A DNA stretch of 21,710 nucleotides, from positions 1-21,710 of IMG/VR virus record IMGVR_UViG_3300025168_000784; one strand, written 5' to 3'. Of the stretch, positions 4,325 to 21,099 are shown in pieces. Source of the DNA: a virus. The notes under the pieces were generated by a model, which ran no database searches, was not told the DNA's origin, and worked only from the letters and a program-made list of their open reading frames with translations. Each line of letters starts with the position of its first letter. Position 1 is the first letter of the stretch. The position numbers and the translations under genes are program-made.

Positions 4325-4537
4325 TTATAACTTATATTTTGCCGCTCTAACTCCGCCGCCCTTGGAATAGGACTTTATCTTTCCGCCTTTTTTATTATAT
4401 TTATACGAGCCTTTATCTGATTTTGAACCTAATGCTCTATAAACATCTTTTTCAGTAATTAGCTTTCTTTCTAATGCTTTAGGCGTTCCAAATATATTAA
4501 TAATTTTAATTACTTCTTTTTCTGTTAAACTACCCAT
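4325..4537 (-). CDS. Small protein with GGGVRxAKYK C-terminal tag
   Basis: Encodes 70 residues and lies between the terminase subunits. The first half (LTEKEVIKIINIFGTPKALE) looks like a small helical domain; the second half is Lys/Gly/Ser-rich and ends SKGGGVRAAKYKL. Almost the same ending occurs on the proteins at 6790-7167 and 7170-7448. The gene is separated from the terminase genes by a base or a few bases and must be co-transcribed with them. Function is unknown. A terminal tag shared by unrelated small late proteins suggests a common binding partner, such as a capsid component or DNA, by inference. Confidence 0.8.
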   Translation of the reverse strand: MGSLTEKEVIKIINIFGTPKALERKLITEKDVYRALGSKSDKGSYKYNKKGGKIKSYSKGGGVRAAKYKL

Positions 4538-6787: not shown

Positions 6788-6829
6788 AACTATATTTTAT
6801 ATTTAGCAGGTCTCACACCGCCACCTTTA
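6783..6829. repeat. Gene-junction repeat, copy 1 (partner 7163-7209)
   Basis: A 47-base segment with two mismatches to 7163-7209 (45/47 by eye). Read leftward, it covers the end of a GGGVRxAKYKI-tagged gene, the short spacer, and the first codon and a base of the following gene. The repeat therefore spans a gene junction rather than a domain. Confidence 0.9.
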
Positions 6830-7167
6830 CTGTATTTTGATTTAGTCACAGAACCACCTTTTTTATTTGGTGGGGCCATATATACCCTATCATTAGTCGA
6901 ATTATCTTCATCTTCTCTTTTTGCTCTATGCTCATCTAAAAGAGCATCCATATGTTTTTGCCATCTTTTATTACCCATTGATAAGTTTTTCATTTCATTA
7001 GGGTTTTTTACATCTCGTTCCTTTATTTGAAGTTTTCTTTGAAGTTTATTTAATTTATCAACAAATTTCTTAGTCATAGGTATAGATTGTATTAAATCTG
7101 AGTTTTCTCCAAATTCAAGAAATCTTAATAATATACTATCTGAAGGTATTTTTTTTGTTGTTGCCAT
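6790..7167 (-). CDS. Small basic protein with GGGVRPAKYKI tail
   Basis: Encodes 125 residues of unknown function. The N-terminal part (SDSILLRFLEFGENSDLIQS) is helical and mixed in charge. The middle (VDKLNKLQRKLQIKERDVKN, then KRWQKHMDALLDEHRAKR) looks like a basic coiled coil. The end is KYSKGGGVRPAKYKI. The tail and the following spacer are nearly identical in DNA to those of the next upstream gene (7170-7448), while the bodies differ. This indicates that the ending behaves as an exchangeable module. No catalytic motif is seen. Confidence 0.8.
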   Translation of the reverse strand: MATTKKIPSDSILLRFLEFGENSDLIQSIPMTKKFVDKLNKLQRKLQIKERDVKNPNEMKNLSMGNKRWQKHMDALLDEHRAKREDEDNSTNDRVYMAPPNKKGGSVTKSKYSKGGGVRPAKYKI

Positions 7168-7209
7168 AACTATATTTTATATTTAGCAGTTCTAACACCG
7201 CCACCTTTA
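7163..7209. repeat. Gene-junction repeat, copy 2 (partner 6783-6829)
   Basis: Second copy of the junction repeat. It holds the last codons of the gene at 7170-7448, the stop, and the start of the gene at 6790-7167. A more diverged relative is visible at about 4318-4365, at the end of the third tagged gene. Confidence 0.9.
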
Positions 7210-7448
7210 GCATATCGAGAACGAAACCCCGATTGAGTTTTTTTCTTTCTTGGTTTAACCATTGGTGCCGCAGACATATCTGCTATGCCACCCATTTGCA
7301 TTTTTTTTGTTTCAACTTCTTTAGTCATACCTTTTTTGTGTGCTGTTTCCAACAATTCCGCCTCAGCCGTAGCCCCATATTTTAACCGAAAGGATACTGG
7401 GTCATTTTTGTATTCATCTAGTAATTTTTTTGTTTGTTCGTTTGTCAT
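7170..7448 (-). CDS. Small protein with GGGVRTAKYKI tail
   Basis: Encodes 92 residues. The N-terminal half (TKKLLDEYKNDPVSFRLKYG, then TAEAELLETAHKKG) is helical. The second half includes MQMGGIADMSAAPMVKPRKK and ends RYAKGGGVRTAKYKI. It shares this terminal tag with the proteins at 6790-7167 and 4325-4537. It is the second gene of the late operon, two bases from its neighbour on one side and about five on the other. Function is unknown. A tail-mediated interaction with a shared late structure is the main inference. Confidence 0.8.
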   Translation of the reverse strand: MTNEQTKKLLDEYKNDPVSFRLKYGATAEAELLETAHKKGMTKEVETKKMQMGGIADMSAAPMVKPRKKKTQSGFRSRYAKGGGVRTAKYKI

Positions 7449-7708: not shown

Positions 7709-7750
7709 AATTTTTTCTGCTATTTTTAGTTAATAATATTTAAAAATAAA

Positions 7751-7805
7751 CGAGGAACCGTCCCAAGAAAGGGCAAAGGTCTTACGAATTGCCACAAGTT
7801 CCTCG
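7751..7805 (-). promoter_or_regulatory. Leader hairpin of the late operon (possible attenuator or riboswitch-like element)
   Basis: Closed by a perfect 8-bp stem (CGAGGAAC at 7751-7758 with GTTCCTCG at 7798-7805). Inside, GGCAA (7772-7776) can pair with TTGCC (7789-7793), while CCC (7762-7764) can pair with GGG (7771-7773). The two inner pairings share bases, so they compete. In leftward RNA the closing stem is followed by TTTATTTTTA, which could act as a weak terminator. It sits between the promoter at 7897-7924 and the first late gene. It matches no riboswitch class I can recall. Confidence 0.6.
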
Positions 7806-7896
7806 TATCCCCTAAGACTAGTTACTCCATACCTCTTTTTGTACATAATGTAAATGTGTAATATGCACGAGTATTATTACTAGTCCCATCTATTAT

Positions 7897-7924
7897 ATTA
7901 TACCCAATATATGGATGTTGTCAA
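7897..7924 (-). promoter_or_regulatory. Consensus sigma-70-type promoter for the late operon
   Basis: On the minus strand, TTGACA (7924-7919) is followed by a 16-base spacer and TATAAT (7902-7897), matching both hexamers exactly. Transcription should begin near 7890 and run leftward through a 180-nt leader into the gene ending at 7454. It is back to back with the forward promoter at 7962-7989, across a 37-base A-rich tract. Confidence 0.85.
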
Positions 7925-7961
7925 GGAAAAAATAAAAAAAAATATAAAAATAATTTTTTAC

Positions 7962-9976: not shown

Positions 9977-10007
9977 AAAAAAAGGGCGATTTATTTCGCC
10001 CTTTTTT
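9977..10007. terminator. Bidirectional intrinsic terminator
   Basis: GGGCGA (9984-9989) pairs with TCGCCC (9996-10001) around a 6-base loop, flanked by a run of A (9977-9983) and a run of T (10002-10007). It can work on both strands. It ends the leftward transcript of the DUF932 unit. Confidence 0.92.
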
Positions 10008-13606: not shown

Positions 13607-13866
13607 TATTTTGTTATAGTCTGTTCAGACACATTCGCAATAACTTTTTCTAAATAATAATATTTCCTTTTCTTTTTAATACCAACTTTAGCACTACCAT
13701 TTAAAATATCTTTTAACATATCTAATTCTTTCTTATCCCATTCGTTAAATCGAATAATTTTTCCATCAGATAAATGTATATGCAAAAATCCACTTTTAGA
13801 ACCATAACCACTACAACCAACAGTAATAGATACAATATCTAAATTTCTATAAGTAACAGCGTTCAT
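13606..13866 (-). CDS. Unrecognised 86-residue protein
   Basis: From the ATG at 13866: MNAVTYRNLDIVSITVGCSG, then SGFLHIHLSDGKIIRFNEWD, KKELDMLKDILNG, and a basic C-terminal KKKRKYYYLEKVIANVSEQT. Beta strands followed by a helix are likely. The frame is open to a TTG at 13905, but the ATG overlaps the stop of the 18-residue hydrophobic gene as ATGA and is preferred. No family is recognised. Confidence 0.65.
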   Translation of the reverse strand: MNAVTYRNLDIVSITVGCSGYGSKSGFLHIHLSDGKIIRFNEWDKKELDMLKDILNGSAKVGIKKKRKYYYLEKVIANVSEQTITK

Positions 13867-13919
13867 AGTAACACCACAATTATAGTAACTACAATAACAA
13901 TCCAAAGTATATGAGCCAT
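13863..13919 (-). CDS. Hydrophobic 18-residue microprotein at the head of the operon
   Basis: Reads MAHILWIVIVVTIIVVLL, a single short hydrophobic helix. AAAGGA lies about 9 bases before the ATG, and the TGA overlaps the next start as ATGA. It is the first frame of the leftward middle cluster, so it could act as a leader peptide that couples translation, or be a membrane microprotein. Length alone gives no proof. Confidence 0.5.
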   Translation of the reverse strand: MAHILWIVIVVTIIVVLL

Positions 13920-13945
13920 ATTTTTTTTCCTTTCAAACTCTTAAA

Positions 13946-14285
13946 CTTACGTTAGTGTCAAAAACGTTTCAAACCAGTTTTACATTGGCACTAACATAAG
14001 TGAGAGCCACAATCTTAGTACTTTAAGTCATGGTGGCTCTCACATTTCTAGTTCTGTTGCTGAAAGATATATCAAGACTAAAAAGTGCAACCCAGATATA
14101 CCATAGTTGCCAATATTTTGACAGCAACAGATATGTTTTAGGTGAGGGAAAACATACAAAAACCTAGAGTCTATTATTAACGACTTATAACTCCAAAAAT
14201 TGTCGTGGGTAGTTTAGGAACTCTTGGTCTACGTCCATTGATTACTTTGTGTAATTTCAAACACAATCCTGTGGCACTACCCATG
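13946..14285. ncRNA. Chain of long stem-loops in the divergent intergenic region (candidate structured RNA)
   Basis: SL1: 13946-13959 pairs with 13987-14000 (12 Watson-Crick, one GU, one mismatch on the plus strand). SL2: GTGAGAGCCAC (14000-14010) pairs perfectly with GTGGCTCTCAC (14033-14043). SL3: TCTGTTGCTG (14053-14062) pairs perfectly with CAGCAACAGA (14122-14131), with a smaller GCAAC/GTTGC pair inside. SL4: around TAGGT (14139-14143) and ACCTA (14162-14166). SL5: 14204-14213 pairs with 14276-14285 (one GU on the plus strand), with TTGTGT/ACACAA inside. The strand is undecided, though pairing quality is similar on both. No gene is convincing within 13920-14536. I cannot match it to a known RNA class. 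Confidence 0.6.
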
Positions 14286-14437
14286 CCGTATCATAAATAG
14301 AGTAAACTCATTTGTTACTGTGAGAACAGGGCATTTCATAACATTAACTTATTTCGTCACAGGCGGTTTTATCCTAGCGACTCTCTTTACTCAACTCTCT
14401 ATCTATAATTATCAATATAGACTACTGAATATCTATA

Positions 14438-14480
14438 GCAAGACTTTTTTTTTATTTTTATTTTATTTTTTTTTACTTGC
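14438..14480. other. T-rich tract flanked by GCAAG/CTTGC, upstream of the primase
   Basis: About 30 bases of nearly pure T (14445-14475) bounded by GCAAG (14438-14442) and CTTGC (14476-14480). It could be a DNA unwinding element near a replication origin, or a terminator for RNA from the stem-loop region. A weak promoter-like TTGCGA...ATAATT overlaps its right end and could drive the primase operon. Confidence 0.4.
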
Positions 14481-14536
14481 GATACTACTTCAATATGATA
14501 ATTATAGTTTCATTACTTTACCACAGGGGTACTATT

Positions 14537-19967: not shown

Positions 19968-19995
19968 TTGACATAGAATTTGTATACTGTATAAT
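19968..19995 (+). promoter_or_regulatory. Consensus sigma-70-type promoter
   Basis: TTGACA (19968-19973), 16-base spacer, TATAAT (19990-19995): exact match, with the same spacing as the promoters at 7897 and 7962. It begins immediately after the stop of the oxygenase-like gene and should start transcription near 20002, upstream of the gene at 20233. Confidence 0.88.
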
Positions 19996-20232
19996 ATACA
20001 TAATGTTTAGGAATAATGTGAATTGCAAACACACTATTGTTTCTGGCTGAACAACAATCGCAAAGTTGTAAGGCATAGGTCTTAATTAGTACGTCCAAGT
20101 GGATGAGGGGTTAAGGGTTAGTACTGAAGTAGCGTTATCCCAGAGATGTGATTTGTCGTGAAAAGGTTGTAGGTGAGGTCACACAAGCCCTACGAAACTA
20201 CCTATAAAATTAATTTGCAAAATTGGAGGTTC
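19996..20232 (+). promoter_or_regulatory. Long structured 5' leader before the 288-residue gene
   Basis: About 235 nt without a convincing gene. Nested pairs TTGC (20023-20026) with GCAA (20060-20063) and ATTGTT (20036-20041) with AACAAT (20053-20058) make one hairpin. ATAGGT (20075-20080) pairs with ACCTAT (20200-20205), closing the remainder. GTAGG (20169-20173) pairs with CCTAC (20189-20193). TTAGTAC occurs twice (about 20085 and 20118). The ribosome site GGAGGT follows the closing arm by about 20 bases, a layout that would allow leader folding to control translation. I recognise no riboswitch class. Confidence 0.5.
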
Positions 20233-21099
20233 ATGTTGAACGCAACAAATATAACAGAAGTTGGATATAGTCCTTTACCAACTACTTTAGACGACATTTC
20301 AGAGGACAAACTTAAGAAATTGATTGGTCAATCTGGGGATACATCATCTGGCGGTGGTATGCCTAGATTAAGTATCAATCATTCTACCGAAGATGATGAT
20401 GGGAATCAAATTCCTAGAGGATTCTACATGATAAAGGACAGTACAGGTAAGTCTATATTTTCTCCCAAAGTAACATATAGACCTTTTGTTCGTACATTCA
20501 TGTACTCTGTATGGGACAATGATAACAACACATTTGGTAGTCAAACCATCCAATCACGAAGCATGAATGATTTGTTTTATGATAGTACGGGTGGATTGAA
20601 ATGTGGTAAACTTGCCCCTAGTAGATTAAAATTACTAGATGAGCATTCTCCCGATGCCGTACTTCAAAAGGGCATTAAATGTGTCCAAGTACTTTATGGA
20701 CTAGTAACCATAGGCGAGGGGCAAGATGCCACAGGAAAACCTGCAACTATAAAAGATTTACCTGCTGTTTGGTATGTAAGAGGTTCTAGTTTTATGCGTA
20801 TTTCTGATTGGGTAAAAACAATTGAAGCACAAAGAAAACTTATGCCAACTTGTACTGCTGAACTGACTACTGTTAAAGGTAAAAGGGGTGGTAATATTTA
20901 TTATGGTGCTAACGCAAAAACCATTAACTTTGGTAAATTTTCCAAAGATGACCAACAACAACTATTAACTTTTTTCGGAAATATTAATTCATTTAATAAT
21001 GGTATTATGGAATCCTATCGTACCAATAAAAAGTTAAACGATGATAGTGGAGACTCTGTTCTAGAAGCTAGATTGGTGGATAATGGTTCCAATACTTGA
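20233..21099 (+). CDS. Unrecognised 288-residue protein, possibly ssDNA-binding or recombination-related
   Basis: Begins at ATG 20233 (or TTG 20236, which has better spacing from GGAGGT). Features: SGGGMPRLSINHSTEDDDGN, then SIFSPKVTYRPFVRTFMYSV, VQVLYGLVTIGEGQ, PAVWYVRGSSFMRISDWVKT and an acidic region KLNDDSGDSVLEARLVDNG at the end. The beta-rich, Gly/aromatic pattern and acidic C terminus would fit a ssDNA-binding protein, and a nuclease gene follows, but I do not recognise the family. It has its own promoter, so it is probably highly expressed. Overlap with the nuclease gene is 17 bases. Confidence 0.75.
   Translation: MLNATNITEVGYSPLPTTLDDISEDKLKKLIGQSGDTSSGGGMPRLSINHSTEDDDGNQIPRGFYMIKDSTGKSIFSPKVTYRPFVRTFMYSVWDNDNNTFGSQTIQSRSMNDLFYDSTGGLKCGKLAPSRLKLLDEHSPDAVLQKGIKCVQVLYGLVTIGEGQDATGKPATIKDLPAVWYVRGSSFMRISDWVKTIEAQRKLMPTCTAELTTVKGKRGGNIYYGANAKTINFGKFSKDDQQQLLTFFGNINSFNNGIMESYRTNKKLNDDSGDSVLEARLVDNGSNT

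Follow-up and report, generated by a model that had tools for sequence, protein, structure and literature searches.

In T4-type phages, promoter-early stem-loop (PeSL) elements are short repeated cassettes between genes that are tied to mosaic exchange. GOLLD and ROOL are large structured phage/prophage RNAs with pseudoknots and unknown function (PMC12286853); the put RNAs of phage HK022, about 70 nt long with two stem-loops, follow early phage promoters and have RNA polymerase as their target (PMC9378689); and RNA anti-CRISPRs (Racrs) are phage RNAs that target host defence in trans (PMC10651486).

We studied IMG/VR record IMGVR_UViG_3300025168_000784, a 21,710-nt stretch of DNA (the window) from an HMO-2011-like phage; the best matches of its terminase and DNA polymerase are Pelagibacter phages HTVC104P and HTVC033P, Roseobacter CRP phages, and Puniceispirillum phage HMO-2011. 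At 13945-14392, about 450 nt, the window carries an array of six structured modules that, read 5' to 3' on the minus strand, are designated E, D1, Q, C, B, and A (Table 1). Comparison with related IMG/VR marine phage contigs and loci (designated by L-numbers, e.g., L060 and L118) shows the array to be a real, modular, RNA-level element.

The arrays may share with PeSL elements the combination of promoter and stem-loop and the mosaic exchange between phages; however, each is one long chain in which the modules differ, loops are conserved, and pseudoknots and nested inserts occur. Like GOLLD and ROOL, the window array is large, structured, pseudoknotted, and phage-borne; however, it is a chain of separate exchangeable modules instead of one conserved fold, it has no Rfam match, and the window contains no tRNA or tmRNA. 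In Rfam searches at gathering and permissive thresholds the array was unmatched (its best permissive matches, all to eukaryotic families, are implausible and fall far short of the gathering scores) and 19 related loci had no match at the gathering score; no covariance model for GOLLD, ROOL, or any other Rfam family matched, marine environmental RNAs included, so the kinship with such a class suggested in the original prediction is not supported. The arrays and scaffold I (a promoter-proximal element of related phages, vide infra) may resemble the put RNAs as structured RNAs directly downstream of promoters, although these promoters are predicted and 'early' is inferred from gene content; in contrast to the two stem-loops of put, arrays are 130-900 nt long with pseudoknots and many different modules, some are apparently terminated, and scaffold I is pseudoknotted and about 120-235 nt long. 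As with the Racrs, short phage hairpin RNAs would lie behind promoters, trans action on defence being a role only proposed for the arrays; however, Racrs mimic CRISPR repeats, whereas each array holds many different hairpins, and we found no credible match among the CRISPR-repeat families in Rfam (a sub-threshold match to CRISPR-DR42, E 3.8, lies outside scaffold I). A type III toxin-antitoxin RNA (ToxI-like, that is, tandem copies of one repeat beside a ToxN-like toxin gene) was rejected because the modules differ from each other and no toxin family occurs among the neighbouring proteins tested. We are aware of no RNA whose scaffolds, loops, and stems pass between viruses as separate units, and the open-access literature that we searched contained no description of such a system.

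The array and its genomic setting

The array lies between the primase gene (rightward, from 14537) and a leftward operon in which an 18-aa hydrophobic peptide comes first, followed by a PF03013/phrog_624 protein; counterparts of the peptide (MAHILWIV..) come after the arrays of L060/L172 and L062/L213. No defence genes were found in the array neighbourhood, and weak PADLOC matches (Cas10 and PDC-M62A; E about 0.001-0.002), which cover short parts of large profiles, were treated as chance. Elsewhere on the minus strand, the gene at 795-2690 adjoins that of the terminase and encodes 631 aa, of which residues 252-411 form a tyrosine-recombinase domain (PF00589); also near the terminase, three small proteins (4325-4537, 6790-7167, and 7170-7448, all minus strand) share the C-terminal motif KGGGVRxAKYK[IL], which may serve all three as a signal for packaging or for the capsid.

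Table 1. Coordinates of the array modules, adjoining features, and examples of scaffold I; the ribosome-binding site and the peptide are as read from the sequence.
Feature	Position	Strand	Elements
Putative sigma70-type promoter of the leftward transcript	14414..14441	-	TTGCTA, 16 nt, TATATT; 9 of 12 consensus matches
Module E (5'-most)	14300..14392	-	Outer helix 14392-14386/14306-14300; inner helix GUCGC/GUGAC, 14381-14377/14360-14356; loop with AUAAAACCG
Module D1 (scaffold)	14206..14287	-	UGGGUAGU/ACUACCCA, AGGA/UUCCU, UUGUGU/ACACAA; stem 14206-14213/14276-14283, 8 bp
Module Q	14132..14205	-	CGAC/GUCG; possible, tentative pseudoknot GGAGUU/GACUCU; hairpin UAUGUUUU/AAAACAUA with loop CCCUCACCU; stem 14132-14139/14149-14156, 8 perfect bp
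Module C	14053..14131	-	Outer stem 14053-14062/14122-14131, 10 bp, perfect; inner helix GGUAUAUC/GAUAUAUC, 14066-14073/14095-14102; pseudoknot GCAAC/GUUGC, 14087-14091/14106-14110, 5 bp
Module B	14000..14043	-	Stem 14000-14010/14033-14043, perfect 11 bp; 22-nt loop
Module A	13945..14001	-	17-position stem 13945-13961/13985-14001; conserved apical part AAUGUAARACUGGUUUGAAACG
Array end and ribosome-binding site	13926..13944	-	Rest of AAGTTTAAGAGTTT junction; GAAAGGA
18-aa hydrophobic peptide	13863..13919	-	First reading frame after the array
Scaffold I in L259	957-1095	+	
Scaffold I in L262	10552-10672	-	
Scaffold I in L129	1878-2063	+	

The original prediction placed a chain of long stem-loops at 13946-14285. 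The chain is present, and three of its stems (SL1, SL2, and SL3) match their description; the stem called SL5 also exists, with 8 perfect pairs instead of the 10 claimed, and the chain does not end at 14285 but continues through module E to 14392. Neither the mosaic of exchangeable modules nor the minus strand as the most likely RNA strand had been recognized.

The plus strand of 13940-14300 folds at -95.5 kcal/mol, as compared with -70.0 +/- 4.9 for 100 dinucleotide shuffles (z -5.2, none of the 100 as good), and the minus strand gives z -2.4 (4 of 100 shuffles as good); however, two coding controls within the window also give z of about -2, so neither significance nor strand is settled by fold energy alone. 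Most arrays have similar z values on both strands and some have no signal, that is, fold energy is uninformative about the RNA strand, so we used the asymmetry of wobble pairs in its place. The D1 inserts give z near 0 when folded alone, and we therefore no longer hold that each insert forms a stable hairpin on its own.

Exchange of modules and compensatory change

The modules occur independently in IMG/VR marine phage contigs, in differing positions and orders: C, F, D2 in L118/L195; J, B, G in L108; D, B, O in L192; F, Q, D, M, G in L206; I, H, E, F, D2 in L172; and N, A, G in L347. Module E recurs at 94-98% in L060/L188/L218 and in L118/L195, with a different place in the latter pair, and its loop AUAAAACCG is also found in module J, there on other stems. 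The apical part of module A is present in 18 contigs (a control pattern with its letters reversed, in none), the core of module D1, ACACAAAGTAATCAAGAGTTCC, in 36, and the AAGTTTAAG junction recurs in L126, L213, L256, and L206. A 14-mer pattern from SL2 was abandoned as a search probe, its matches being mostly unrelated. The phage isolate collection contained no DNA match for the three arrays tried, and 84,980 bacterial species genomes contained no exact copy of the scaffold I core or loop A.

Two of the elements, D1 and I, are conserved scaffolds that carry different inserts. The D1 scaffold is kept across 14-17 variants while its inserts differ; the small insert in the window (AUGGACGUAGACC) is peculiar to the window phage. 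Scaffold I, which is absent from the window, is promoter-proximal and pseudoknotted, has an exchangeable internal insert, and was found in 70 IMG/VR contigs; it is a strong candidate for an RNA family of its own. Of the records searched, fifteen have one detectable copy and ten have none (including the window's record and three isolates), and no record has more; it was not found in HTVC033P, HMO-2011, or HTVC104P. Inserts also move between contexts: the apical part of A is nested inside D1 in L256; insert R1 occurs alone (L085, L120, L206, and L356), in D1 (L211), and in I (L228); and insert R2 occurs in D1 (L126) and in I (L291, L304, and L317).

At the window's own locus the array is almost wholly replaced in the closest relatives, although the flanks retain 75-89% DNA identity (primase 89%, promoter block 81-89%, left gene 75-79%). 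When a 476-nt stretch containing the array is compared with L060/L218, module E alone aligns (115 nt at 94%); 66 nt align with L057, and nothing aligns with L062/L213.

Within modules, the paired positions change together. The eight stem variants of module A have a mean identity of 97% in the loop and 53% in the stem arms. In a five-sequence alignment of module A, 8 of 21 pairs are changed on both sides (covariation score 0.424 vs 0.173 for shuffled alignments, 0/500 as high); in 22 sequences of scaffold I, 16 of 30 pairs are changed on both sides, those of the pseudoknot included (0.394 vs 0.166, again 0/500), and in both cases the shuffles allow for relatedness incompletely. When the structures are slid by 1-3 columns, the scores fall to 0.01-0.10. 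Several of the other modules are known from only 3-6 distinct variants: module B (four variants) has a nearly invariant loop, and its altered stems still pair through G-U on the minus strand; in module C (three variants), L195 and L267 have GCGAC/GUCGC in place of the pseudoknot GCAAC/GUUGC, and L267 also has an entirely different outer stem; and in module Q (five variants), UAUGUUUU/AAAACAUA becomes, for example, UAUAUUUU/AAAAUAUA in L206. As judged from these alignments, compensatory base changes exceed those expected by chance, as in a structured RNA. The recurrence of the modules in other phage contigs with compensated stems is the decisive evidence that the stems are not due to chance, and, together with the lack of an Rfam match, it supports the original prediction of a new structured RNA.

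Strand, promoters, and array ends

In the stems that we scored, some of them in imperfect registers, 49 wobble pairs form on the minus (sense) strand and 14 on the plus strand; module O is the cleanest case, with 12 and 0, respectively. A counter-sign is the stem of window module A, in which 16 of the 17 positions pair on the minus strand when G-U is counted and one is a C.A mismatch; another is the weaker fold z of the minus strand. The putative promoter of the window is a weak match to the consensus, and shuffled sequence contains sites of this kind at least as often, so the match by itself does not rise above chance. It is backed by its location, where the array has its 5' end, and by the 131-nt block in which it lies (14406-14536), which is conserved in relatives. 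Predicted sigma70-type promoters are also found directly ahead of the arrays or scaffold I in L115, L129, L211, and most I loci, and scaffold I starts at or near the predicted start site, with a good promoter upstream. Given the minus-strand wobbles and the predicted promoters, the most likely reading of the array is that it forms the 5' leader of the transcript that runs leftward.

Read from the sequences, the arrays of the window, L172, L192, L211, and L213 run into a ribosome-binding site and start codon, and those of L093, L108, L256, and L347 end in a GC-rich stem and a T run, followed by a separate promoter and the primase gene; L120 and L206 have similar ends with a poorer T run. The arrays that end at such intrinsic terminators are apparent stand-alone RNAs. 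Leaders, the window array included, are the majority of the arrays seen.

Possible functions of the arrays

That the window array is structured at the RNA level on the minus strand, is modular and exchanged between phages, and carries apical sequences that are portable between stems and scaffolds, these being interchangeable in turn, is, from the comparisons above, very probable. We tentatively prefer, as a quite possible reading, that it is a mosaic array of an early transcript that works mainly in trans. Early transcription from the promoter at 14441-14414 would produce a transcript whose roughly 450-nt structured 5' part (minus strand, 14392-13945) would consist of six independently folding modules; each module would display a sequence-specific hairpin that binds, in trans, a protein or RNA of the host (or of a rival phage), acting, for instance, as a decoy for factors of host defence or RNA handling; and modules would be gained and lost through recombination as host pressures change. 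We favour trans over cis action because the loops are portable and nearly invariant, the locus stays in place while its modules change, terminators seem to close some arrays, and scaffold I is single-copy; the preference is modest because most arrays seen are leaders. Racrs are a precedent for phage RNAs with trans action on defence (PMC10651486). The search for a target also speaks against trans action, since Rfam, complementarity to rRNA beyond chance, and neighbouring defence genes gave no result (both pairing and mimicry with E. coli rRNA were at chance level).

The main rival, possible if rather doubtful, is a cis-acting mRNA leader with several structured domains, that is, an antiterminator of the put kind or an element through which the early operon would be stabilized or translated. 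In the window and in most other cases the array leads straight into a ribosome-binding site and start codon, and the placement of scaffold I at or near a predicted start site, like that of the HK022 put RNAs that act on RNA polymerase (PMC9378689), would suit such a leader; however, a leader acting in cis does not readily account for arrays apparently terminated ahead of the next gene's own promoter, for the complete replacement of modules at one locus between close relatives, for the module A of L302, which is found between convergent genes after a stop codon, or for a single scaffold I per genome despite several operons, followed by varying, unrelated genes. Selfish or nearly neutral hairpin cassettes, spread through phage recombination with no function for the phage, would explain the nesting, shuffling, and complete turnover; we consider them distinctly unlikely, as stems change in a compensatory manner while loops are held constant, pseudoknots covary, and the arrays keep a steady position behind promoters and near primase. 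A DNA-level element acting through extruded hairpins (a recombination site or, as the original prediction allowed, an operator or origin) is highly improbable: the position between divergent early operons, beside primase, would fit, and perfect inverted repeats function in DNA too, but the wobbles favour one strand, the scaffold I pseudoknot covaries, arrays lie directly behind promoters, compensated stems would be needless for a protein that binds duplex DNA, and the module content of the locus turns over completely.

Returning to the trans-acting mosaic array, a more specific version is on balance unlikely: a new viral system in which constant RNA scaffolds show exchangeable hairpins, each neutralizing a different host (defence) factor, so that the anti-host island would be built of RNA, not protein. 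Phage mosaicism is known for genes; here it appears within one RNA, whose loops, stems, and scaffolds are swapped separately. The conserved loops and scaffolds are discrete, testable sequences, and the phages that carry them are relatives of groups infecting SAR11, SAR116, and Roseobacter bacteria. If host factors are indeed what the hairpins target, the phage's RNA-made counter-measures could be read off from its repertoire of modules.

Other intergenic structures occur in the window. A 12-bp perfect hairpin at 9978-10007, with A and T runs on either side, looks like a bidirectional terminator, and the intergenic region at 7735-7960, whose two strands fold with z -1.9 and -3.2, contains several stems, among them the inverted repeat GAGGAAC/GTTCCTC. 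Besides the array, another intergenic stretch is conserved: 19995-20215 (+) lies upstream of the gene at 20233 and is present in six related contigs, with invariant motifs that include TGGCTGAACAAC and AAGGTTG; it has no Rfam match and its fold energy is no better than that of shuffled sequence. It is probably another leader RNA, and its counterpart in L260 is located just upstream of scaffold I.
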